A DNA stretch of 64,000 nucleotides from Ornatilinea apprima. Lineage in GTDB: Bacteria; Chloroflexota; Anaerolineae; Anaerolineales; Anaerolineaceae. Shown here piece by piece: positions 36,920 through 49,524 of the stretch. The position numbers were made by a program, and so were the translations under genes. The number at the start of each line of letters is the position of its first letter. Position 1 is the stretch's first letter. The stretch spans positions 1-64,000 of the forward strand of contig NZ_LGCL01000036.1 of the NCBI RefSeq assembly GCF_001306115.1. The letters run 5' to 3'. The notes beneath the pieces are model-generated. The model did no database searches and was not told where the DNA came from. It saw only the letters and a program-made list of their open reading frames with translations.

Positions 36920-38029
36920 TCAAGAGCTATCCTTCGAGCGAAAAACCCGCAGCTCCATTTGCCCGCGATTCCACAGCCAGGGATAAGCGGCTGGAACGAC
37001 CGCGCCTGCCACCAGCAGTAAGCCGGTGATGAGCAAAATGGAGGCTATGATGCTGATGGGGGGAAAGACAGCCGCGACCAAGAAGAATAGAATAGCGAGC
37101 AGCACGATACCCAGGCCAATGCCGCCCAAAATCCCCGCCGATTTCCACCCGCGCTTTTGGGATGCCAAGCGGGGACCATACAGCTGCCCGCTCTGCGCGT
37201 TGAGGGCGACCAGGATTTTCTGGTTGTCGTCTGATGTGTAATAGGTGATGTAAGCTGGGGCCAGAAGTTGAGTCCAGTTTTGGTTGGAGTAGTCTGCGGT
37301 TACGGAGAAATTTCGAACATGCTGCGCGCTGCAGGCCGTCTGGCAATCTGTTTGCAAGACTTGTTGCAGGCGCATCTCGGCTTGCGGCCAGGCTTGTTCG
37401 GGGAGAACGTCTGGACAGCGAAGCCAGGCTGAGGATGCATGCGCGGGATCGAAATCAATGGCCCGTTCAAAGTCGTATTGCCCCAATGCAGTGGAAAGCT
37501 GCTCCTGGTCGGTGAGGGCGTTAACCGCAACGTTCTGATAAGAACGGGAGATCTTTCCCAGGCGCGGTTCCCATCGGATGCGCGTTTCCTGAATAGGCTG
37601 GGTGTGCCATTCGCCATTGGTAAAGATTTCTTTGGTACTCTGAACCTGGTAATCAAAACCGGCCTCCGCCTGCCAGGTTCCCTGCGCGGCGGCGTCGACC
37701 AGCCAGAGGGGGAAATAAATCGGCAGCGCTCTTTGCGCCAGGTGTTGGGGAGAAAAATCGGGAGCGGAAAGCCATACGCCCTCACAAAAGCGGGTGAAGC
37801 GAGCGGCCAGGTGGGAAGGAGAAATAGCAAAGGGAATGATCTTCTCGGGCGGTTCAGGCCGGACAGGGCCGGAGAAGGGCTGCAGCCTGCCTTGCGAGCA
37901 TTGGGGGCAATTGTCGGCTGCGCTGCCGGCAGGTTTAAGAAAAGCCCGGCTGCATGCATGGCAAACGACCGTCTCAAGCGGCAGGCCCCACATCTCTTGG
38001 ATTGTGTTGGGTGCTATTTCCTGGTTCAT
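36920..38029 (-). CDS. Zinc-ribbon membrane protein, paralogue B of a tandem pair
   Basis: A 369-residue protein. Near the N-terminus is a zinc ribbon (CHAC...CPQC), followed by a long soluble region and two transmembrane segments near the C-terminus. The phrase HVRNFSVTADYSNQNW matches HVRNFSMSADFANETW in the upstream gene (38026-39315), so the two are paralogues by duplication. The ATG overlaps the upstream stop (ATGA, 38026-38029). A longer reading to 38218 would overlap that gene extensively. Relatives are often mislabelled replication-related proteins. Function unknown. Confidence 0.75.
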   Translation of the reverse strand: MNQEIAPNTIQEMWGLPLETVVCHACSRAFLKPAGSAADNCPQCSQGRLQPFSGPVRPEPPEKIIPFAISPSHLAARFTRFCEGVWLSAPDFSPQHLAQRALPIYFPLWLVDAAAQGTWQAEAGFDYQVQSTKEIFTNGEWHTQPIQETRIRWEPRLGKISRSYQNVAVNALTDQEQLSTALGQYDFERAIDFDPAHASSAWLRCPDVLPEQAWPQAEMRLQQVLQTDCQTACSAQHVRNFSVTADYSNQNWTQLLAPAYITYYTSDDNQKILVALNAQSGQLYGPRLASQKRGWKSAGILGGIGLGIVLLAILFFLVAAVFPPISIIASILLITGLLLVAGAVVPAAYPWLWNRGQMELRVFRSKDSS

Positions 38030-39315
38030 TCCGCCTCCGATTCTACGGCCTTTTTGTAGAGTGAAACTGAGAAGATAATTCCAGCAACCAGCAGCACAAA
38101 GCCCAGAATGAGCGGCACGATGCCAATTCCGCCGGCCAGCAGAAGCGGCAGGCCAATCAACAAAAGCAGGAAGCCAGGGGAAAGCGAGGCGGCAATGGCT
38201 GCCCAAATCTTCCACCATTCAACCGGTTTTTGACCGGCAATTTCGCCCGTTTGCCCATTGATCATGACCTGATACTTTTTTTCTTCAAAGTGATAGGTGC
38301 TGAGAAAGACCGGTAAAAAGATATAGCGCCAGGTCTCGTTGGCAAAGTCGGCGGACATGCTGAAATTTCTGACATGGTGGGTTGGAATATCCGCGTAACA
38401 AGCTTCACGGTTTTTCTCGCGCATTTTATCTTTAGCGGTGTCCCAGGCTTCTTGCAGTGATAAGTCGAAATGGTTGGCTTGCCAGCCGGCTAGAAAATCG
38501 GGTGAGAAAGATTGGAGTGCGTTGAGGTCAAAGGGTTGAATTTCTTCCAGGATGCGCTGGCTGACTTTGCGTGTGCCAGGGATCAGGATGTCATCAAAAC
38601 TTTGATTAACCTGCCCGTCTTCCCAACGCCAGTCGATGGTCGTGCGGGTTTTCCACTCTTTGCTTCCGGCATCATAATATCGCTCACTGCGTTCATAGCC
38701 AACCAGCGCTTTCCAGTCCGCATTGATCTCGGCGTCGAACGTCCAAAAGGGAAGGTATACACCACGAAACGAGTTGACCGTGGCTGAGGAAGATAAGCTT
38801 TGGGGGTGGAACCAGCCTTTACCCAACCAATTCGATACAATGGTTTTCAATTGATTCTGGTTGATCGAAAAAGGAATGATGTATTTGGGTTGTAATTCTT
38901 CCACAGGCAAATCGGCGATGTGAATCTTGTTTGAAGCGCAAAATGAGCATGTGCCGGATATCGCGTTTTCGGGTACGCTGGTGGCGGCGCCGCACTGCTC
39001 ACATACCAGATCCTTTCGCCCGGCTGTCCACTGGACGTGGTTGGCTTTTTCCATCACGTCCACGCGAAATTCATGCTCTTCGGCGGCTTTCCCGGCGACC
39101 TGCGTCTGAACGGCATGCACATACCCACAATGTTCACAGGCGACACCGCCCGCTGCAATGTCGTAGCGCGTAACCGCGCCGCAACGCGGACAGGTGTATG
39201 TAACCAATTTATCGCGTGAACCATTCACCTGCTTCACTGGCGCGAAAACAGTTACACCCGGTAATTTGGACTCCACTTGCGAAAACCCTTCAGGAATGTG
39301 CCATTCTTTGCTCAT
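38026..39315 (-). CDS. Zinc-ribbon membrane protein, paralogue A of a tandem pair
   Basis: A 429-residue protein with two zinc ribbons (CPRC...CEHC, about residues 42-62, and CEQC...CSFC, about 103-123), a soluble core, and two or three transmembrane segments at the C-terminus (about 360-425). Shares the HVRNF-type core and overall plan with the downstream paralogue. Translationally coupled to it, so the pair probably forms a heteromer, perhaps at the membrane with zinc ribbons inside the cell. Function unknown. Confidence 0.78.
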   Translation of the reverse strand: MSKEWHIPEGFSQVESKLPGVTVFAPVKQVNGSRDKLVTYTCPRCGAVTRYDIAAGGVACEHCGYVHAVQTQVAGKAAEEHEFRVDVMEKANHVQWTAGRKDLVCEQCGAATSVPENAISGTCSFCASNKIHIADLPVEELQPKYIIPFSINQNQLKTIVSNWLGKGWFHPQSLSSSATVNSFRGVYLPFWTFDAEINADWKALVGYERSERYYDAGSKEWKTRTTIDWRWEDGQVNQSFDDILIPGTRKVSQRILEEIQPFDLNALQSFSPDFLAGWQANHFDLSLQEAWDTAKDKMREKNREACYADIPTHHVRNFSMSADFANETWRYIFLPVFLSTYHFEEKKYQVMINGQTGEIAGQKPVEWWKIWAAIAASLSPGFLLLLIGLPLLLAGGIGIVPLILGFVLLVAGIIFSVSLYKKAVESEAE

Positions 39316-39678
39316 TGTTTTATCCTTATACTAAAATCAGACCCCATTATTTTAACATTTTTTACTCGGTCTTAATGCAGTGTTGTAATGCGGGTCAAAA
39401 TTTGCTATATTAATTGTCATACAATTACTTTTACTATCCAACTCGGTAGGAAAACTGTACAATACATATACGAAAAATTTTGTTATTGATTGTATTTAAT
39501 TGTTCGATGGGATATCCAACCTTTCAACTAATTTTCCTTGCTATGATGAAGCACATGTCCCATGTCAATTGGTGGCGATGGGACATTTTTAATGATGAGA
39601 TGGTCTGGTCAAATTGACCGGCTCTGAAAGCTGGAGGCCGGTCTTACCCAATGATTAATCCACAGACGAGAGGAAATT
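39316..39678. other. Intergenic leader region upstream of the xanthine-dehydrogenase-family genes
   Basis: 363 bp, AT-rich in its left half (divergent promoters likely but no clear -35/-10 pair). In the right half are a terminator-like hairpin (39554-39590) and a second hairpin, GACCGGC/GCCGGTC (39616-39622 with 39637-39643), then GAGAGGAAATT before the ATG at 39679. No open reading frame precedes the first hairpin. Confidence 0.6.
39554..39590 (+). terminator. Terminator-like hairpin in the leader of the molybdenum-hydroxylase operon
   Basis: Perfect 9-bp ATGTCCCAT/ATGGGACAT stem (39555-39563 with 39578-39586) followed by TTTTT, but no gene upstream on this strand. The 8-nt CGATGGGA within its 3' arm (39576-39583) recurs at 39505-39512, which could pair with the 5' arm instead. 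That is the layout of a transcription attenuator. Confidence 0.6.
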
Positions 39679-40362
39679 ATGGGAGAGAAAACCGAATTGA
39701 GTAAGGTCAGGCAAGTACAAGTTGATGGTCTCGCGTTTCTTTTGGCGGATGCCGACGCCAGTCTGGATGATGTTGAGCAGTTTAGCGGACTTCCGAGCCT
39801 GGTAAAAGAGGGTTTGCATCTCGGAACGAACTGGCACCACCGGAACGAGTACACCGTAGAAAAATCATTGCTGTCTCCCAGTCTTGCGCAGCAATGGGTC
39901 GCATCCTTACTGGCAGTTGGGGCGGCCCTGGAGTTTGAGGATGGAGCGAAAGCCAGTGTGGCTGACCTCTTATCACGCCGGGGGACACGCGGTAAATTGA
40001 AAGCCTTGCTGATTCCGATGGATCAGGGGGCGTTTGGCGCAGAAGCGCATGTTGGAATGACACCGGGAGACACACCGATTGTTTCCAGCACGGTTGGATT
40101 GGTCCTAGAAGGCGGGAAGGTTGCCGCTTTACGCATCGCGCTGGCTGGCGCTTTCAAAGAAAGCGTTCGGTTGAGCGCGGCAGCAGAGGCATTCCTGGGC
40201 AAGGAATTCTCTCAGGACTTGATCACGCAGGTCGCCGACTCAGTGGAAGAGGAATCCACACCCAAAGCGGATTATCGTGGAAGTGTTGAATATCGGAAGA
40301 GAATGGCTGGCGTGCTGACGCGGCGCGCCCTGGAAACTTGTTTGAAGGGAGCCGTGAAATAA
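39679..40362 (+). CDS. Degenerate FAD-subunit-like protein of a molybdenum hydroxylase (CoxM C-terminal)
   Basis: A 227-residue protein. Residues about 125-225 are a CO-dehydrogenase flavoprotein C-terminal domain: TPGDTPIVSSTVGLVLEGGKVAALRIALAG, FKESVRLSAAAEAFLGK and RGSVEYRKRMAGVLTRRALE. The part before that corresponds to the end of the FAD_binding_5 domain (LLAVGAALEFEDGAKASVADLL) but lacks the FAD motifs (the GGT and IRNVGTIGGN-type loops). So it cannot bind FAD in the usual way. It stops 1 bp into the ATG of the molybdenum subunit gene. Likely a structural partner. Confidence 0.75.
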   Translation: MGEKTELSKVRQVQVDGLAFLLADADASLDDVEQFSGLPSLVKEGLHLGTNWHHRNEYTVEKSLLSPSLAQQWVASLLAVGAALEFEDGAKASVADLLSRRGTRGKLKALLIPMDQGAFGAEAHVGMTPGDTPIVSSTVGLVLEGGKVAALRIALAGAFKESVRLSAAAEAFLGKEFSQDLITQVADSVEEESTPKADYRGSVEYRKRMAGVLTRRALETCLKGAVK

Positions 40363-43271
40363 TGGCAGAGAAAATGGTTTCAATCGAATTTGTTCTCAAT
40401 GGTGAGGCTCAGCAAGCCGCAGCTGACCCAAAGCAGAGCCTTTTGGAATTTTTACGCGGGCAAGGGTTATTTGGCACCAAGAACGGTTGCAGTGAAGGCG
40501 ACTGTGGCATGTGCACCGTTTTGTTGGATGGAAAACCGGTGCGGAGCTGCATGCTTAAAACGCCGGCTGCCGATGGCCATGAGATTTTCACAGTGGAAGG
40601 ATTAAGCAAGGACGGTAATCTGCACCCGATTCAGGAAGCTTTTTTTGACGCAGGCGCTATTCAATGCGGTTTTTGTACGCCCGCCCAGTTGCTCACGGTG
40701 AAAGCGCTGCTGGACCGGAACAGTAATCCTTCTGAAGACGAAATCCGCGAGGCTGTCAGCGGCGTGCTGTGCCGTTGCACAGGTTACGTCAAAATTATTG
40801 AGGCAACTCAGCGCGCCGCGGCAATGATGCGGGGCGAGCCTGTGCCGCCGATAAAAACCATTGAAGAAACCCTGCCGAAAATGGATGATCCGCTTCGACT
40901 GCCAGAAGCGTTCTATCGCAAAGAGCACAATCATGGAATTTTGCCTCACATTGTCTATACCCCAGAAGAAATGTCGAAGACCGATTTTGTGGGCAAACCG
41001 GAAAAGAAGGTGGATGGGCGAAAGCTGGTGTTAGGTAAACCGGTCTTCACCGATGATTTCCGCTTGCCTGGAATGCTGTATGCTGAGTTATTGGTCAGCC
41101 CGCACGCGCACGCGCGAATCAAGAACATTGACGCAAGCAAGGCTCTGGCGTTGCCCGGAGTGGTGAAGGTGCTGACATACAAAGACCTGCCGCGCGTTAA
41201 TTATGCTTCTGGCGGTCAAAGCTATCCACAACCGCTGCCTTTCGACCAGGTAAGCTTGGATGATAAAGTGCGGCATGTGGGTGACCGAGTGGCCTTAGTT
41301 GCCGCCGAGACGCCGGAGCTGGCCCAGAAGGCGCTGCGCCTGATCAATGTGGAATATGAAGTATTGCCGCACGTCACCGACATGGAAGCGGCGATGAAAG
41401 ACGGCGCGCCGGTGATCCATGACGAGCCGGGTGTTGAAGGCATCTTTGATACTCAGCACAATGTTATTTACCATATCGATGAGCATGTTGGCGACATTGA
41501 AAAGGCTTTTGCAGAAGCTGATCATGTGTTTGAACGTGAGTTCCGCACTCCCAAGCAGCATCACGCGCAAATGGAGCTGCACGCCTGCATCACCTATTGG
41601 GATGAGGATGACCGCTTGGTGGTGCGCACCAGCACGCAGGTGCCTTTCCACGTGCGCCGCATCATTGCTCCGCTGATTGGGCTGCCCATCAAACGCATTC
41701 GTGTGGTCAAACCCCGCATTGGCGGCGGTTTTGGCGGCAAGCAAGAGATTTTACTGGAAGATTTGTGCGCGCATATGACGATTGCCACTGGACGCCCCGT
41801 TCGCTTGCAGTACTCGCGCCGCCAGGAGTTTATGAGCGGACGCAGCCGTCATCCTCAGATCATCAAATTCAAACTGGCCGTGAAAGATAATGAAGTTACC
41901 GGCACCGAGCTTCGCCTGATTGGCGATACCGGCGCGTATGCTTCACACGGGTTAACGGTGCAAATGGTGGCTGGTCTCAAAAGCCTGACGCTGTATAACG
42001 CGCCTAATTCGCATTTCTTGTGCGATGTGGTCTACACCAACACACCCCCGGCGGGCGCATTCCGAGGCTATGGGACGATGCAGTGCGAATTTGCCCTGGA
42101 AGTGATGATGGAAGAAATCGCTGAGAAACTGGGGTTGGACGTGATTGAGTTCAAACGCAAGAACCTGATTAAAGTTGGCGACAACATGTGGGTCGCGCAA
42201 AAGCTGGGTGAGGGGCGGGAAGGGTACGCCCAGGTGATGACGACCAGCGCGTTTGATGAATGTCTCAAAATCGGTGTGGAAGCGACTGATTTCTATAACA
42301 AGCGCAAAGCCTACCAGAATCAAAGCGGAAGCAAGCGTAAGGGCATCGGTGTGGCAACTGTGATGCACGGCAGCGGTATTGCGGGTTTGGATATGGGCGC
42401 CGCGACGCTGAAGATGAATGACGATGGCTCATTCAACCTGCAGATGGGCGCTACGGACCTGGGCACCGGCTCTGATACCATTCTGGCGCAAATGGCGGCA
42501 GAAATTCTGAGTATTCCGGTTGAAGATTTTATCGTCTACTCTTCAGACACCGATTTCACCCCCTTTGACACGGGCGCATACGCCTCCAGCACGACCTATA
42601 TCAGCGGTGGCGCGGTTCGCAATGTGGCCTTGGAGATCAAGAAGCAAATCCAGGCGCACGCAGCAGATATGCTGGAGTGGAAGAACCCCGAAGAATTAGA
42701 GCTGCGCGACCGAAAAGTGATTGCCCCAGACGGCCGCTCTGTTACCTTTGAGCAGGTGGCGTTGAGCAGTACTCACCAGATGAACCAACACCAGATTATG
42801 GCAACCGCTTCTCACATGAGTTACATGAGCCCTCCGCCAACGGCTGCCCAGTTCGTGGAAGTGGAGGTGGACACAGAGACCGGTGAGGTGAAGGTTGAGC
42901 GCATGTTGATGGTGGTAGACTGCGGCCGGGTCATCAACCCAATCACCGCTGCCGGCCAGGTGGAAGGCGGTATGCAGCAAGCCCTGGGCTTCGCACACAG
43001 CGAGTTCTCCCTCTTTGATGAGTCGGGTGATATGGTCAACGCGCGCCTGGCTGAATACCACGCCTACAAAGCGCATGAAATGCCGGCTACGGATGTCATC
43101 TTTGTGCAAACGGATGACCCGAACGGGCCTTTTGGCGCGAAATCGATTTCTGAGCTGGCCATTGATGGGGTTGCCCCGGCTCTGGTAAGCGCGATTCACG
43201 ACGCGACTGGTGTCTGGATTCGCGAGCTGCCGCTCACTCCGGAAAAGGTTTGGCGCTCGCTCAATCAATAG
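40362..43271 (+). CDS. Molybdopterin-dependent hydroxylase: fused 2Fe-2S and Mo subunit (xanthine dehydrogenase family)
   Basis: A 969-residue fusion of small and large subunits. N-terminal plant-type 2Fe-2S cluster (C43, C48, C51, C63), then a second 2Fe-2S domain (C102, C105, C137, C139), then Mo-binding domains beginning around residue 210 (DDFRLPGMLYAELLVSPHAHARI), with GGGFGGKQE, AFRGYG and a late KSISELAIDG segment holding the catalytic Glu. Family members oxidise purines, nicotinate, aldehydes or CO. The stop-start overlap with the preceding gene shows co-translation. No FAD subunit of full length is encoded here. Substrate unknown. Confidence 0.9.
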   Translation: MAEKMVSIEFVLNGEAQQAAADPKQSLLEFLRGQGLFGTKNGCSEGDCGMCTVLLDGKPVRSCMLKTPAADGHEIFTVEGLSKDGNLHPIQEAFFDAGAIQCGFCTPAQLLTVKALLDRNSNPSEDEIREAVSGVLCRCTGYVKIIEATQRAAAMMRGEPVPPIKTIEETLPKMDDPLRLPEAFYRKEHNHGILPHIVYTPEEMSKTDFVGKPEKKVDGRKLVLGKPVFTDDFRLPGMLYAELLVSPHAHARIKNIDASKALALPGVVKVLTYKDLPRVNYASGGQSYPQPLPFDQVSLDDKVRHVGDRVALVAAETPELAQKALRLINVEYEVLPHVTDMEAAMKDGAPVIHDEPGVEGIFDTQHNVIYHIDEHVGDIEKAFAEADHVFEREFRTPKQHHAQMELHACITYWDEDDRLVVRTSTQVPFHVRRIIAPLIGLPIKRIRVVKPRIGGGFGGKQEILLEDLCAHMTIATGRPVRLQYSRRQEFMSGRSRHPQIIKFKLAVKDNEVTGTELRLIGDTGAYASHGLTVQMVAGLKSLTLYNAPNSHFLCDVVYTNTPPAGAFRGYGTMQCEFALEVMMEEIAEKLGLDVIEFKRKNLIKVGDNMWVAQKLGEGREGYAQVMTTSAFDECLKIGVEATDFYNKRKAYQNQSGSKRKGIGVATVMHGSGIAGLDMGAATLKMNDDGSFNLQMGATDLGTGSDTILAQMAAEILSIPVEDFIVYSSDTDFTPFDTGAYASSTTYISGGAVRNVALEIKKQIQAHAADMLEWKNPEELELRDRKVIAPDGRSVTFEQVALSSTHQMNQHQIMATASHMSYMSPPPTAAQFVEVEVDTETGEVKVERMLMVVDCGRVINPITAAGQVEGGMQQALGFAHSEFSLFDESGDMVNARLAEYHAYKAHEMPATDVIFVQTDDPNGPFGAKSISELAIDGVAPALVSAIHDATGVWIRELPLTPEKVWRSLNQ

Positions 43272-43352: not shown

Positions 43353-43691
43353 TTATGCTGATAAGGAATACCGCCTGCCGTGAAAGAAGCGATTCCAATC
43401 ATCGCGACTGCTTTGAAGCGCAATGTAGATATAGAAGCTGACGGTAAAAAAGCCTAAAACCATAATGAAAGCGACCCAGATGATTGATTTTAGGGCGCTC
43501 TTTTCGCGGTAGATGACCCACATCGAAAACAGAGAAAACCCCACATACAAGTCAACCAGTGAGACAATTCCCCACGGCATGGAAAGTAGCTGCGAGCCCT
43601 CAGTGAAAAAATTGCCGCGTGTGAAGGCATAGATCAGAACCGCGGTCATTGCAAATACACCGATCAGTGAGATGGTCTTGGTAATTTTCAT
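43353..43691 (-). CDS. DUF1475-like small membrane protein
   Basis: A 112-residue membrane protein with three to four hydrophobic segments. TKTISLIGVFAMTAVLIYAF, PWGIVSLVDLYVGFSLFSMWVIYRE, KSIIWVAFIMVLGFFTVSFYIYIAL look like the DUF1475 family. Start 43691 is chosen for GGGAGG just upstream; a longer reading would overlap the DUF1295 gene. It is 49 nt downstream of that DUF1295 gene, a pairing suggesting a shared lipid or membrane role. Function unknown. Confidence 0.72.
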   Translation of the reverse strand: MKITKTISLIGVFAMTAVLIYAFTRGNFFTEGSQLLSMPWGIVSLVDLYVGFSLFSMWVIYREKSALKSIIWVAFIMVLGFFTVSFYIYIALQSSRDDWNRFFHGRRYSLSA

Positions 43692-43740
43692 TAAGCCTCC
43701 CTGCAGGATAATCAAAATTATTCGTTTGAAAAACGCTTCT

Positions 43741-44535
43741 CTACTCATTTGGGTTGGATGGATGTTTGGGAAACCAGGGGAAGAATGAGCTGGTCGTCTC
43801 AATATATTCCTTGTATTGTGGTTTGGTTTCTTTGAGTGTCTTTTCCAAAAGCGCGACACCGGACACCCGCAAGAGAAGCACCGTCATCAAAATGGGGCTG
43901 AAAACGCTCCAGAACGCCCCCAACGAGGCGGCAATCAAATAGTAACCCCACCACTGCGCAGCGTCTCCAAAATAGTTGGGATGGCGGGTGTAGCGCCAGA
44001 CGCCGGTATTAAGGACTTTCCCTTTATTTTCTGGGTTGGCTTTGAACCGCGATAATTGGGCATCTCCGGCGGTTTCAAAGTAGAAACCATACAACCATAC
44101 CAATCCACCAGCAATCACGAGCGGCAAAATGCCTGGCTGTGTGCTGATCATGGCGGCAGTGAGAGGGGTTGAAATCATCCACATTAAGACGCCCTGGAGA
44201 ATAAAGGTCTGAAAATAACTGTACCACCACCAGCTTTTGCCATGTTCCTCACGCCAAGCACGGTAGCGAAAGTCTTCAGGTTTATTTCGATTGCGGATGA
44301 AAATGTAGATTGACAGTCTCAGCCCCCAAACGGATACCAGAATCAACAGTAAGACCTGCGCCCATGACATGGGGCTGGCGACCATGAACACCAGCCAGGC
44401 GGTTAGGACAAACCCCAGTCCCCAGAAAATATCGACAATGCTGGTATTTTTGAGGGCCAGGCTGGCGACCCAGATGGCGGTCATATAAGCAAAGATGAAA
44501 ACGCCGGTTAAAAGAACAGCTTGCTGGATACCCAT
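43741..44535 (-). CDS. DUF1295 membrane protein (steroid 5-alpha-reductase-like)
   Basis: A 264-residue protein with about six transmembrane helices. The diagnostic C-terminal block LNTGVWRYTRHPNYFGD (about 178-194) places it with DUF1295, the steroid 5-alpha reductase-like fold of NADPH-dependent membrane reductases and isoprenylcysteine methyltransferase relatives. Substrate unknown, likely a lipid. Followed by the DUF1475 gene on the same strand. Confidence 0.85.
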   Translation of the reverse strand: MGIQQAVLLTGVFIFAYMTAIWVASLALKNTSIVDIFWGLGFVLTAWLVFMVASPMSWAQVLLLILVSVWGLRLSIYIFIRNRNKPEDFRYRAWREEHGKSWWWYSYFQTFILQGVLMWMISTPLTAAMISTQPGILPLVIAGGLVWLYGFYFETAGDAQLSRFKANPENKGKVLNTGVWRYTRHPNYFGDAAQWWGYYLIAASLGAFWSVFSPILMTVLLLRVSGVALLEKTLKETKPQYKEYIETTSSFFPWFPKHPSNPNE

Positions 44536-44619
44536 TTTTCACTCCTCTGTTGATTTGATTCTACTCGAACCCGATCAACGGGGTGAATGCTTGTATCAGC
44601 TTTAGTTGGCGTGTTGGGG

Positions 44620-45066
44620 TTATTCGCTGATGACTTTTCCGCCCTTGAGCGTGGCCTGGTACGATTTTAGCTGTTCCCATTCACCGTTGGCCGCAAGGCG
44701 GGCTTGATTGGGCCATGTCTGCGGATCGGCCAGGCGGATTCCAGCTTTCTTCAAAATGATCTCCAGTTCGGAGCGGTTGCACTCCGATAGCTGCTGGAAG
44801 GTATTAATCCCCGCGCTATTGAGAATTATCTCGATTTTGGGACCGATCCCTTCCACCTGCTTCAAATTGTCGGGAGTGACGGGCGTTTGGGGGGCGGTAG
44901 GCGCAATTTTAATTTCTTGCAACCGGCTTTGCTGCCTCGGGGAAGTGGATAATGACGGCCATCCTTCTTTTTGCTGCTCGATGAGCTGTTTGATCACCAC
45001 ATACAGCCCAAAACCGGCTGCAAAGAAGTAGACAGTTCGTTTCATTGTTTTGATCATTTTTTTCAT
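44620..45066 (-). CDS. Helix-hairpin-helix domain protein with N-terminal membrane anchor
   Basis: A 148-residue protein. A basic start and a short hydrophobic segment (about 10-25) suggest a membrane anchor; residues about 68-130 are a helix-hairpin-helix domain (LKQVEGIGPKIEIILNSAGINTFQQLSECNRSELEIILKKAG) of the kind seen in DUF4332 proteins and L21 fusions. Such domains bind nucleic acid non-specifically. The rest is linker. Specific role unknown. Confidence 0.78.
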   Translation of the reverse strand: MKKMIKTMKRTVYFFAAGFGLYVVIKQLIEQQKEGWPSLSTSPRQQSRLQEIKIAPTAPQTPVTPDNLKQVEGIGPKIEIILNSAGINTFQQLSECNRSELEIILKKAGIRLADPQTWPNQARLAANGEWEQLKSYQATLKGGKVISE

Positions 45067-45270
45067 GATAGCTTCCCTTAGTTGGTCACTTCATCGGGTG
45101 ACCTCGTTATCTGTTTGCCTGAAGTAATGGGGGATGGTTTCTGGCAGGGCGAAAACAAAATTCCACATGCCGGCTTTAACATCCGTCCATTTTTTTTCAG
45201 TAAAGAAAAAATAGCCTAGCGTATAAGGCTAAGACCATTTTACCAGTATATTGATGAGAAAATATACGCT

Positions 45271-47217
45271 TCAGGCGCGAAGAATCAGGAATTGGTAAGG
45301 AGTAAGACGCAGTTGTTCAAGGTTTAGATTTTCTTTGGTAATCAGGTTCTCAAATGTGTAACCCAGGCCGTACAATCTCAGCAGGTTAAAATCCAATTCC
45401 TGCGGCTTCTCAGAAAAATTGGCAAGTATGATCAGACGCTCTTTAGCTGTGCTTCGGACGTACCCTAAAACATGCGGGTTCCAGGTATCCATGACCTGAA
45501 TATGCCCGTTGGCCAGTGCCGGCTCAGTTTTGCGGATGCGGATGAACTTCTGCATCTCCTGGAAAATGCGGTATTCTACAGACCCTGGATTATTCCGATT
45601 TTCGTATTTTGACCAGTCTGCGCGGGGACGGTGAACCCAACGGCTATCTGAGGCTTTGGCCGGGTCGTTTCTATAGCTGTAGTCATTCAACGTGCCAATT
45701 TCGTCTCCCAGGTAGATCAAGGGGATGCCGCCGATGGTCATGATGACCCGATGCAAGAGGAGAATGCGATTTATGCTGTTCTGAATTTCTTCCTCTGAAT
45801 TTTCTGTGAGGGCTTTTTCCAGACCAGCCAGAGAGGCGCATGTGCCGGAGATGCGCGCATCACCGGTGCGCGGGTTTTCCTGGAAAGGCAAGCCGCGGGC
45901 GAAACTTTCGGGATAACGGCCGGTATAAAACGCATTCAAGAATTTGCGATGATCGTATCCGTTGATGCCAAGACGACCAGCATCATCGTCTGAGAATGTC
46001 CAGCCGATATCGTCATGGCAACGCACATAATTTACCCAGGCGGTGTGCTCTGGCAGGGAGAAGCGTTCGACCAGGGCCTGCTTGAGAAGATTGATTTCGC
46101 GGGTGGCCAGGGTGTTCCAAAGGAGGGCCATGATGAGAGGATTATATGAAAGCTGGCACTCCGCGGGCGAAATGTAACGAACGACTTCGTCGGGGTGGAC
46201 GATGGCCTCGGATTTGAAGAGCAAAGCGGGGGCTGCGATGCGCGCAACGGCATTGTAAGCCTGTATGAGGATATGCGCTTTTGGCAGGTTTTCGCAGACC
46301 GTTCCCATTTCTTTCCAGGTGAATGCAACCGCGTCCATGCGCAGCACTTCAACACCGGCATTGGCCAATGAGAGCATCTCTTCGGCCATTCTGATAAAGA
46401 CAGCCGGGTTCTGGTAATTCAAATCCCATTGGTAGGAGTTGAAGGTTGTCCAGACCCATTTTTTTACTTCCGGTAAGTAGGTGAATGACCCTGGGCGTTG
46501 TTCGGGAAAGATTTCGCGCAGGTTGCGCTCGTATGCGTCAGGCATTACCCGGTCTGGAAACATGAAGTAGTAATCCTGATATTCAGGATCGCCAGCAATG
46601 GCGTTAAGCGCCCATTGATGCTCGTTGGATGTATGATTGAAAACGAAATCAAGCACCAGGCTGACGCCGTTTTCACGCAACTGGCGTGATAATTGGGCCA
46701 GTTGCTTCATCGTGCCTATCGATGGATTGATTTCTCGGTAGCTGCTGATGGCATAGCCGCCGTCATTCTCGCCGTCGGGAGACTTAAATAACGGCATCAG
46801 GTGCAGATACGTCAGCCCCAATTCGCGGAAGTAGGGAATTTTGGATTGGATGCCCTCTAGGCTGCCAGCAAACAGGTCTACATAGCAGACACCGCCAACC
46901 ATTTGATTGGATTGGAACCAGTCAGGATTTGATTCGCGGCTCAAGTCGAGCTGTTTCAAGTCCGCGGGGCGGGCAAACCAGGACTGCGCAAGGCTTTGAA
47001 GCAGTTTTTCCAAATGGAAATAGAAATCGTGCTGATTTGCGTAGAGCTGGAGGAGAAGAGAGAAAAGGGTCTCAAAATGGCGCTCAAGGCGAGCATTGAA
47101 AGCCTGCCAATCTTCGGGAGATCGCTGGCGTTCTGCTTTGAATTGCTCTTCAATACGGGGGCGCAGGCGATCCAGCGCCAGGAGGGCCTTGTTTTGGTAA
47201 TGGATGGCTTTTTCCAT
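45271..47217 (-). CDS. Amylosucrase (GH13)
   Basis: A 648-residue sucrose-using transglucosidase that transfers glucose to glycogen-like alpha-1,4 glucan, releasing fructose, or hydrolyses sucrose. The helical N-terminal domain (about 1-85) and (beta/alpha)8 barrel match amylosucrase. Catalytic residues are visible: nucleophile D295 in VLRMDAVAF, acid/base E337 in FKSEAIVHP, D402 in VRCHDDIGWTF. Start is ATG 47217, with GTG at 47223 as an alternative. It lies after the ABC permeases of the LacI-controlled operon, separated by a strong hairpin (47254-47286). Confidence 0.9.
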   Translation of the reverse strand: MEKAIHYQNKALLALDRLRPRIEEQFKAERQRSPEDWQAFNARLERHFETLFSLLLQLYANQHDFYFHLEKLLQSLAQSWFARPADLKQLDLSRESNPDWFQSNQMVGGVCYVDLFAGSLEGIQSKIPYFRELGLTYLHLMPLFKSPDGENDGGYAISSYREINPSIGTMKQLAQLSRQLRENGVSLVLDFVFNHTSNEHQWALNAIAGDPEYQDYYFMFPDRVMPDAYERNLREIFPEQRPGSFTYLPEVKKWVWTTFNSYQWDLNYQNPAVFIRMAEEMLSLANAGVEVLRMDAVAFTWKEMGTVCENLPKAHILIQAYNAVARIAAPALLFKSEAIVHPDEVVRYISPAECQLSYNPLIMALLWNTLATREINLLKQALVERFSLPEHTAWVNYVRCHDDIGWTFSDDDAGRLGINGYDHRKFLNAFYTGRYPESFARGLPFQENPRTGDARISGTCASLAGLEKALTENSEEEIQNSINRILLLHRVIMTIGGIPLIYLGDEIGTLNDYSYRNDPAKASDSRWVHRPRADWSKYENRNNPGSVEYRIFQEMQKFIRIRKTEPALANGHIQVMDTWNPHVLGYVRSTAKERLIILANFSEKPQELDFNLLRLYGLGYTFENLITKENLNLEQLRLTPYQFLILRA

Positions 47218-47253
47218 TTTCACTCATTCCCATTGGCTGGGTGCCTGGGTATT

Positions 47254-47286
47254 CTAACCGGCGAGACGGATAATCTCGCCGGTTAG
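47254..47286 (-). other. Hairpin between the sugar permease and amylosucrase genes
   Basis: Perfect 13-bp stem CTAACCGGCGAGA/TCTCGCCGGTTAG with a 7-base loop and no T tract. Probably a processing or attenuation element. Confidence 0.65.
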
Positions 47287-47308
47287 CGATTCAGGAGACC
47301 AACCAAAT

Positions 47309-48403
47309 CTAACCTTTGACAGACCCTGCCATCAGGCCGCGCACAAAGTAACGCTGCAAGGAGAAGAATACAACCAGGGGCAGGATCATTGAAACGAACG
47401 CGCCGGCGGTGAGCACGTGCCAATCCTGGCCGCGCGAACCCACCATATCCGCCAGGCGCATGGTCATCACTTGTACGGCTGGCTTGCTGCCGATGAAGAC
47501 CAGGGAGACCAAATAGTCATTCCACACCCAGATGAACTGGAAGATAGCAAAGGAAGCCAATGCCGGAACCGAAAGCGGCAAAACCAGTCTCTGGAAAATG
47601 GTGAAATGCGATGCGCCATCAATGAAGGCTGATTCGAAAATGTCTCTGGGGATGGTGCTGATGTAGTTGTAAAGCAGATAGGTGGCCAGGGGCAAACCAA
47701 AACCGGTGTGTGCCAGCCAGACGGCGAGGAAAGTGCCGTTCAGGTCCAGCTTTACATAGTCGCGCAGGATCGGGATGAGGGCCAACTGCAGCGGCACAAC
47801 CAGCAGCGCAACCACGATGATAAAGAAGAATTTGCGGCCAGGGAAGCGCATCCACGCGAAACCATATGCCGCAAAGGCGGCGATCAGGATGGGAATGACT
47901 GTGGACGGCACAGTTACCACAATGGTGTTGATGAAAGCTTGAGAGAGATCATCACCTTTTTCAGTTTTTGTGCTGCCATCGGGCGCAACATATTGATACT
48001 CTTTTCCGGACAATACGTTTTGGTAATTGTCAAGGGTGAAGTTGGTGTTTGCTGCCCATACTCTATCCTGGACGCTCACAATCCTCTGGCGGCGATTCTC
48101 CCATATCAGTTTCTGGCCGTTTGGGGTGACATACCCGTCGCGAAGCTGCCGGTCAGTCACTGTTGCGCCAGCTACTTGAATAGGCTGCTCAAGATCGACC
48201 TCTTTTGGCAGACTGACGGATTCTACCGTCTTAAATTCGCGGTGCGGGAAGATTGTCCACCAACCTGAATTGACGATGTCTTCACGGGTGCGGATCGAGG
48301 AAACCAAAAGACCGATGGTGGGTACTGTCCAGACCAGGCATATGAGCAAAAGGGTGAAGTTGACAAAAAACTTTGACCAGAATTTTCGTTTCGACTGGCT
48401 CAT
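47309..48403 (-). CDS. Carbohydrate ABC transporter permease (MalG-like)
   Basis: A 364-residue inner-membrane permease with about six helices and an unusually long extracytoplasmic segment (about 45-145) between the first and second, carrying many charged residues. The cytoplasmic EAA motif is in FESAFIDGASHFTIFQRLVLPLSVPALA, the site that contacts the ATPase. Its start overlaps the stop of the MalF-like gene by 4 bp (ATGA). The operon has no ATPase, so it should use a shared one. Confidence 0.92.
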   Translation of the reverse strand: MSQSKRKFWSKFFVNFTLLLICLVWTVPTIGLLVSSIRTREDIVNSGWWTIFPHREFKTVESVSLPKEVDLEQPIQVAGATVTDRQLRDGYVTPNGQKLIWENRRQRIVSVQDRVWAANTNFTLDNYQNVLSGKEYQYVAPDGSTKTEKGDDLSQAFINTIVVTVPSTVIPILIAAFAAYGFAWMRFPGRKFFFIIVVALLVVPLQLALIPILRDYVKLDLNGTFLAVWLAHTGFGLPLATYLLYNYISTIPRDIFESAFIDGASHFTIFQRLVLPLSVPALASFAIFQFIWVWNDYLVSLVFIGSKPAVQVMTMRLADMVGSRGQDWHVLTAGAFVSMILPLVVFFSLQRYFVRGLMAGSVKG

Positions 48404-49524
48404 TTGAACACCTCCCGCTTGCCAAACTGGCTGAGGTTATAAATCATGATCGGGATGACCGCAATGAGCAAGACAATTGAAATTGCCGAGCCGTAACCAA
48501 AGTTGCGGTTCGAGAAGAACTGCCGGTAAAACTGCGTGGCAATCACCTCTGTGCCGTATTGTCCGCCTGTCATCACCAACACAACGTCAAAGATTTTCAG
48601 GGAGAAAATGACGATGGTGGTCGTTACGGTGATAATGGTGCCCTGGATCTGGGGGATGATGATTTTGAAAAAGATTTGAAATTCGTTGGCACCATCCACG
48701 CGCGCGGCTTCGAGCAACTCTTCCGGAACGCCTTTGATGGCAGATGAGAAGATGACCATCGCGTAGCCTGTCTGAAGCCAGACCATGATCACGATCAGGA
48801 AGAAATTGTTCCAGGGCTGCAACAGGGTAGTCCAGGCTTGAGGCTCACCACCAAAGAGGGTAACAATGGCATTGAGCAAACCAGTTTGAACCATGTTTGC
48901 CGGGCGGTAATAGTAAATGAAGCGCCAAATAACACCCGCGCCAACAAAGGAAATGGCCATTGGCAGGAAAATGAGCGATTTTGCGATGGATTCAAAAGAA
49001 CTGCGGTCGGCCAGAACAGCGATTAACAAGCCGAAAATGACGCTAAGCGAGGTGCCGATAACCAGCCAGTACAGATTATTGCGGAATGATTCGAGCATCG
49101 CACGTTCGGTAAAGGCGGCCACATAATTTTGCAACCCCACAAAAACAGTAGAGTTGTTGTTGAACAGGCTGAGATAAAATGTTCGCAGGGTTGGCAGGAA
49201 TAAGAACCAGGTGAGGATAGCAACAGCGGGGCCAACAAAAACGAACGGTGAAAGACGACGGGTCCAAACGTCAGGCAGCTGCTCAATTAACCAGTTCGAG
49301 ACAATGTAGAGGATGGCAACGCCACCCACACCCCAAATGATGGCGACCAGTGCGGTAACGATTTGCGGCGCATTACTATCTCGCAAGAAGAGAAAGCCCT
49401 GCCAGAGACCAATAAAAGTTAATATGGGTACGAAAATGGAGATGAGAATCCGCCCCAGGCTGGATGCCAACCAGTCAATTGGGGAAGAGATGCTCTCTCT
49501 GTTACCAATTCCTTTCGTAGACAT
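48400..49524 (-). CDS. Carbohydrate ABC transporter permease (MalF-like)
   Basis: A 374-residue permease with about eight transmembrane segments, one of them an extra N-terminal pair (about 20-80). EAA motif: LLEAARVDGANEFQIFFKIIIPQIQG. Similar to alpha-glucoside permeases such as AglF. Lies 136 nt downstream of the binding-protein gene, beyond a hairpin, and overlaps the MalG-like gene. Confidence 0.92.
   Translation of the reverse strand: MSTKGIGNRESISSPIDWLASSLGRILISIFVPILTFIGLWQGFLFLRDSNAPQIVTALVAIIWGVGGVAILYIVSNWLIEQLPDVWTRRLSPFVFVGPAVAILTWFLFLPTLRTFYLSLFNNNSTVFVGLQNYVAAFTERAMLESFRNNLYWLVIGTSLSVIFGLLIAVLADRSSFESIAKSLIFLPMAISFVGAGVIWRFIYYYRPANMVQTGLLNAIVTLFGGEPQAWTTLLQPWNNFFLIVIMVWLQTGYAMVIFSSAIKGVPEELLEAARVDGANEFQIFFKIIIPQIQGTIITVTTTIVIFSLKIFDVVLVMTGGQYGTEVIATQFYRQFFSNRNFGYGSAISIVLLIAVIPIMIYNLSQFGKREVFK

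Follow-up and report, generated by a model that had tools for sequence, protein, structure and literature searches.

A 64,000-nucleotide stretch of the Ornatilinea apprima genome (contig NZ_LGCL01000036.1, positions 1 to 64,000 of the forward strand; the window, below) encodes a molybdenum (Mo) hydroxylase in two co-directional genes: a truncated YgfM-like subunit of the flavoprotein family, which we call the partner (39,679 to 40,362, plus strand), followed by an XdhD-like fused [2Fe-2S]-[2Fe-2S]-Mo subunit (40,362 to 43,271, plus strand). We propose, at a probability of roughly 60%, that this is an XdhD-type molybdenum enzyme without flavin adenine dinucleotide (FAD), with a purine as substrate, an iron-sulfur (Fe-S) cluster II that exchanges electrons with a ferredoxin or flavodoxin, and a partner that has become structural. 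The loss of a FAD subdomain and of the FAD loops, the conservation of that loss, the selection on the partner, and the clade can be read from the sequences; from them we infer the absence of flavin in the protein, the carrier, the substrate, and the direction of the reaction.

Results

The partner is predicted to lack the first FAD subdomain

The partner gene encodes 227 residues and a stop codon. Its sole Pfam domain was PF03450 (CO_deh_flav_C; residues 130 to 219, E 3e-17, 63 bits against a cut-off of 25.5), and PF00941 (FAD_binding_5) was not found in a Pfam search at E ≤ 1, so that of the two domains of an FAD-binding medium subunit (PF00941 plus PF03450), CO_deh_flav_C is present and FAD_binding_5 with its two glycine-rich loops is not. 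The NCBIfam model for YgfM (TIGR03312) matched the protein weakly, at 30 bits (cut-off 241.5). No missing N-terminal piece was seen by eye upstream, where positions 39,316 to 39,678 hold short frames only; the preceding gene lies on the minus strand.

An AlphaFold2 model built on an alignment of 49 partners reached a predicted local distance difference test score (pLDDT) of 94.4 and a predicted template modeling score (pTM) of 0.91, and its top Foldseek match was 4zoh_B, the flavoprotein chain of glyceraldehyde oxidoreductase (E 1.6e-13). In VIA-align, residues 5 to 226 of the partner fell on residues 56 to 287 of CutM, the CO dehydrogenase flavoprotein (1ffu_C; Z 26.1, root-mean-square deviation 2.8, 217 aligned). 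The two share the same fold over this range, while CutM additionally has residues 1 to 55, the first FAD subdomain. Because the alignment begins at CutM residue 56, the model indicates that FAD subdomain 1 (about 55 residues, including the first GG loop) is absent from the partner as a unit and that the remainder is a well-formed fold. The middle FAD-domain fold of the model is whole and its FAD loop 2 is rewritten: the motif WHHRNE (residues 52 to 57; 39,832 to 39,849, plus strand) occupies, in the alignments, the start position of the canonical second FAD loop (RNxATIGGN). An earlier annotation made from the letters alone, the sequence-only reading, had described the partner as a C-terminal domain plus a remnant of the FAD domain without the glycine-rich loops. 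It was right about the loops, but the middle of the FAD domain, to judge from the CutM alignment, is more than a remnant.

Loss of the FAD loops is shared by a family of short partners

We searched for partners in 101 genomes (that of O. apprima and those of 100 relatives). Apart from matches in O. apprima itself, the seven best were short frames in five genomes, with a sixth genome (G012) lower down, and had 217 to 250 residues. A class-wide search of 396 genomes returned 19, O. apprima included, with a short-form match at E ≤ 1.1e-46; two genomes with a full-length sister form in the same E range (G404 and G224) were set apart from these, and one with a cut short-partner fragment (G310) was left out. 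Relatives of the fused subunit were taken from a scan of genome contigs, of which the best 80 of 582 were kept.

We compared 31 short partners with 59 others, the latter including fused FAD/Fe-S proteins, a few cut frames, and Escherichia coli YgfM and XdhB. None of the 31 short partners has the second GG loop, and 30 of them lack the first (the exception sits in an over-extended start), the loop-1 count, unlike the loop-2 count, being partly circular as the short partners were hand-sorted by length and profile start. Among the 59 others, loop 1 was kept in 42 and loop 2 in 51. The loop loss noted at first in a single sequence holds across the short partners. A W(H/Q)xR motif was found in 27 of the 31 short partners versus 0 of the 59 others. 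The short partners range from 205 to 303 residues, partly through start choice (two, L056 and L072, are cut by contig ends), and eight other partners are 29 to 42% identical to the window's.

In a separate group (L040, L041, L042, L102, L104, L108, L114, and L117) the partners are full-length and the loop-1 GG has been replaced by VGPRP- or LGTYP-like residues. Because this group kept its length while losing the loop-1 GG, erosion of the FAD site happened more than once.

At L159:1-2877 (G477), a single frame, cut by the contig end, encodes a natural fusion of a short partner and the Fe-S/Mo subunit. The model of this fusion (pLDDT 69.5, pTM 0.47) was of too low quality to reveal how the two dock, with about 20 residues of each partner row misplaced in the alignment.

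The short partner appears about as constrained as partners with intact FAD loops

As a measure of selection, we calculated the ratio of nonsynonymous to synonymous substitution rates (dN/dS) by NG86, dS above 1 in several pairs making those values rough. The ratio was 0.11 to 0.29 in the nine short-partner pairs with a value, two more short pairs being saturated and most short pairs coming from one family of genomes, and 0.03 to 0.14 for the Mo subunits of the same eleven pairs. Control partners with canonical loops gave 0.19 to 0.30 in six pairs, and their Mo subunits 0.05 to 0.12. Since the ranges of short and canonical partners are alike, the short partner is under comparable constraint. 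A pseudogene is ruled out by these values together with the canonical control.

That the partner is a functionless vestige on its way to being lost is very improbable. Its dN/dS lies within the canonical-partner range, the motif at loop 2 is conserved in most short partners, and one of them occurs as a natural fusion to the Fe-S/Mo subunit; a vestige would nonetheless fit the variable length, the low identity, and a six-row subclade without an adjacent partner (see below). The same data bear on whether the partner still binds flavin, as flavin mononucleotide or FAD, in a different way, through its kept middle and C-terminal domains and a W(H/Q)xRNE motif. Such binding would be consistent with domains that are intact in the model, with a motif specific to the short clade at loop 2, and with a constraint resembling that of canonical FAD partners, but the partner has lost subdomain 1 along with both glycine loops, it diverges fast, and one subclade has no detected partner beside the enzyme. 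We therefore consider altered flavin binding improbable.

Short partners define a single clade of fused subunits

We placed the fused subunits in a tree of 98 rows (LG+G4, support by SH-aLRT only), without Mo frames shorter than 900 residues (including L038, L157, L158, L094, L156, L088, and L119) and without near-duplicates between the G and L sets. The window fell in a 34-row clade with a support of 100, which comprised 25 short partners, 5 rows with none, 2 cut by a contig end, 2 undetermined, and 0 full-length; no short row of the tree falls outside it. In total the tree held ten undetermined rows and four whose partner was cut by a contig end. Scoring a row as none required a minimum of 1000 bp of sequence upstream and 300 bp downstream, with no partner in the 1.2 kb before or the 0.3 kb after the gene, and such a row might hide a partner too diverged for the profile used. 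Rows of this kind also occur outside the clade, and L126 and L127 among them have a partner-like gene farther upstream, at 3.1 and 5.2 kb. In a 48-row subset analyzed under a mixture model, the clade, represented there by 26 rows, again had a support of 100. The nearest full-length rows (L169, L170, and L174) have kept the loop-1 GG and lost the loop-2 GG. Most relatives are metagenome-assembled, and L075 (titled Methanosarcinaceae) and L080 (titled Acidithiobacillus), amid otherwise Chloroflexota rows, probably reflect mis-binning.

The sequence-only reading had named, as the opposite of its own view, a recent local truncation among orthologues with full FAD domains. This and a split gene are ruled out: the short partner is clade-wide and under purifying selection, no full-length partner occurs in the clade, and by eye no N-terminal frame lies upstream.

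In one subclade (L080 and L083 to L087, support 99) no adjacent partner was detected, with five rows scored as none and L083 undetermined as its contig ends within the gene, which suggests that the enzyme can work without the partner. Partner homologues are present elsewhere in five of the six genomes, all in frames of 254 to 490 residues, and a partner in trans is thus possible.

The fused subunit retains the Fe-S and Mo sites of the xanthine oxidase family

The ATG of the fused subunit (40,362) overlaps the partner's stop codon by one base and opens a frame of 969 residues plus a stop; an alternative 977-residue frame begins at a TTG within the partner gene. Fer2, Fer2_2, Ald_Xan_dh_C (the hammerhead), MoCoBD_1, and MoCoBD_2 scored above their Pfam cut-offs. 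Cys43, Cys48, Cys51, and Cys63 (40,488 to 40,550, plus strand) form a plant-type [2Fe-2S] ligand set that we take to be cluster II, the FAD-adjacent one in relatives, and Cys102, Cys105, Cys137, and Cys139 (40,665 to 40,778, plus strand) presumably bind cluster I. All eight cysteines are conserved without exception in the eight aligned rows, those of the window and seven relatives, which, with the Pfam domains, bears out the earlier description of fused small and Mo subunits with two 2Fe-2S motifs.

By alignment, a GEG loop (42,207 to 42,215, plus strand) brings Glu617 opposite Glu606 of E. coli XdhD, at a gap in XdhA, and a GAKSISE motif identical to that of XdhD (43,134 to 43,154, plus strand) contains Glu931, which we take to be the catalytic Glu of the family. 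The protein accordingly has the two [2Fe-2S] domains, the α/β hammerhead, the two molybdenum cofactor-binding domains, and the catalytic Glu of the xanthine oxidase family. Its top NCBIfam models were xanthine dehydrogenase XdhA (708 bits, cut-off 780) and XdhD (TIGR03313; 682 bits, cut-off 1102), and it stayed below the cut-off of the molybdopterin-dependent aldehyde oxidoreductase model NF045668 (524 versus 1100 bits). The best-scoring solved relatives of the Mo part were 4-hydroxybenzoyl-CoA reductase and two aldehyde oxidoreductases (1sij and 1dgj). A coevolving patch on the Fe-S domain found no support, just 2 of the 16 positions in the comparison lying within the Fe-S part.

The O. apprima genome has three Mo-hydroxylase large subunits, of which the window's alone has the fused length. 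Another, of 752 residues (G000:C1:88327-90585; L179:4328-6586), adjoins a dihydropyrimidinase-like gene, and by eye no Fe-S or FAD subunit gene lies beside it.

Some clade loci lie beside purine genes

At one clade locus, L036, the short-partner pair follows a gene for 8-oxoguanine deaminase (659 bits, curated cut-off 532), an enzyme whose product is urate, and precedes a BMP-family transporter. The partnerless L085 leads a cluster of SsnA, NpdG, CofE, and luciferase-family genes (NCBIfam check on L085), and L088 likewise leads an SsnA cluster; the Mo subunit of L088, which is not in the tree, is split into frames of 583 and 378 residues (L088:2577-5480), through an assembly error or as a pseudogene. 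Outside the clade, three loci (L129, L138, and L146) hold SsnA, NpdG, CofE, luciferase, partner, fused Mo, FAD/Fe-S, and Mo genes in one cluster. O. apprima itself has a cluster on another contig (G000:C42:44793-54162; L197, L198, and L180) of SsnA, NpdG, CofE, luciferase, FAD/Fe-S, Mo, and nucleotidyltransferase genes (the CofE and nucleotidyltransferase assignments being by eye) without a ygfM-xdhD pair, and this cluster resembles the form that the reductive urate pathway takes in Chloroflexota. Because it has no such pair and the window holds the sole fused-length Mo subunit of the genome, the window pair may supply in trans the step lacking from it. A FAD domain drawn from another gene is unlikely, the genome's single FAD_binding_5 match being already fused to its own Fe-S domain in the same cluster.

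These neighborhoods bear on the substrate. An FAD-less enzyme with carrier hand-over might instead act in the oxidative direction on an aldehyde or another heterocycle, as the Desulfovibrio gigas aldehyde oxidoreductase does, and the solved relatives of the Mo part, its 14 clade-specific positions, and the scarcity of purine genes at clade loci would fit this reading. We hold it to be unlikely, though worth keeping in view, given the XdhD-type Glu loop and gene order, the purine neighbors at L036, L085, and L088, and the location of fused relatives outside the clade in SsnA/F420 clusters.

Three further observations concern neighboring genes. In a Symbiobacteriaceae record far from the window's clade, an 8-oxoguanine-deaminase-like gene directly follows a fused Mo gene (L142:8874-10280). 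Within the window, positions 36,920 to 39,315 hold two adjacent, paralogue-like minus-strand genes with zinc-ribbon CxxC motifs (by eye), and the nearest relative (Ornatilinea sp., 75% identity) seems by eye to share several genes after the Mo gene in the same order (window 43,353 to 49,524; L032:4076-10000).

Discussion

We propose that the Mo site in the fused subunit would carry out the substrate chemistry and that electrons would travel among Mo and the two clusters, [2Fe-2S] I and II, as throughout the family. With no flavin at the end of the chain, cluster II would trade electrons directly with a soluble carrier, a ferredoxin or a flavodoxin, and the partner would be retained as a structural cap and possibly as a docking surface. 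The likeliest substrate would be a purine, our best guess being urate reduced to 2,8-dioxopurine. Mo, both clusters, and FAD form a nearly straight line in glyceraldehyde oxidoreductase, with 7.0 Å between FAD and cluster II (PMC4726530); without FAD, cluster II would be the natural entry or exit point for electrons. That the enzyme passes electrons straight to another carrier and that the partner is structural, as the sequence-only reading suggested, is the mechanism that the sequences best support. Its premise of a usual path from Fe-S through FAD to an acceptor is less universal than claimed, as published FAD-less relatives indicate (PMC4726530, PMC10223205, PMC12507026).

The nearest characterized counterpart is E. 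coli YgfM-XdhD, which likewise has a fused Fe-S/Mo subunit with a flavoprotein-family gene directly upstream, ygfM standing directly before xdhD. In contrast to the window partner, in which both loops are gone, YgfM has AGGS and TIGG loops. One report states that XdhD with a co-purifying protein of about 30 kDa (putatively YgfM) converts urate to yanthine with NADH, that Glu606 is proposed to orient urate, and that Clostridioides difficile XdhD lacks YgfM, with ferredoxin proposed as a possible carrier (PMC12507026). The C. difficile enzyme is thus, by description rather than by sequence, alike in being an XdhD-type enzyme without a FAD subunit, but it has no partner, whereas the window's clade keeps a truncated and conserved one.

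The D. gigas aldehyde oxidoreductase (1sij) is one polypeptide with two [2Fe-2S] domains and Mo domains and no FAD domain, and it is described as working with flavodoxin in a reconstituted chain (PMC10223205). It has the same layout as the partnerless subclade, in which alone, within the clade, no adjacent FAD-subunit gene was detected. The window differs from it in keeping a truncated flavoprotein-family subunit and in scoring higher on the xanthine dehydrogenase and XdhD models. FAD-less relatives, namely these D. gigas and C. difficile enzymes, are therefore already known (PMC10223205, PMC12507026), while no description of such a truncated FAD subunit was found in titles and abstracts of the open-licence PubMed Central literature.

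Several observations weigh against our proposal. By eye, no purine gene lies beside the window pair, and no carrier gene adjoins it, ferredoxins not having been searched for; the eight flavodoxin-domain matches of the genome are all away from the pair. Among clade loci, the SsnA cluster occurs only in L085 (and L088) and the deaminase only in L036 (duplicated as L081). Of the 33 loci besides the window, 21 come with flanks of 1 kb or more on each side, and 25 were inspected by eye for other purine genes. SsnA, matched at E ≤ 1e-130 in 307 of 396 genomes (303 over the cut-off), did not co-occur significantly with the short partner (18 of 19 short-partner genomes versus 289 of 377 others, Fisher p 0.09). 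Identity between the fused subunit and E. coli XdhD is 37% over 924 columns, and the fused subunit scores far below the TIGR03313 cut-off, E. coli XdhD itself reaching 2123 bits. The Glu loop was present in all 15 other fused relatives aligned, with or without FAD partners, and so, on these alignments, marks the wider family and does not single out the window's clade. Lastly, 14 positions of the Mo part differ characteristically from relatives with canonical partners, and the substrate could have changed.

More tentatively, the clade might have switched the electron source of an XdhD-type urate enzyme as a whole. NAD(P)H-FAD input would have been removed stepwise (loop 2 first, subdomain 1 next, and finally, in a single branch, the entire subunit). 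The subunit, stripped of its flavin, might have found a new use as an adaptor for docking, offering [2Fe-2S] II to a low-potential ferredoxin, a flavodoxin, or an F420-linked reductase, so driving reductive urate breakdown in Anaerolineae.

The family shows a redox module at several stages of dismantling: a full flavoprotein, a full-length subunit with one loop lost, a truncated and conserved subunit, and none. This series makes it testable whether a flavin subunit can persist after its flavin is lost, serving as a scaffold or for docking. If the link to urate is true, the pair would be a candidate for the urate-reducing enzyme in genomes that have an SsnA/F420 cluster without one.

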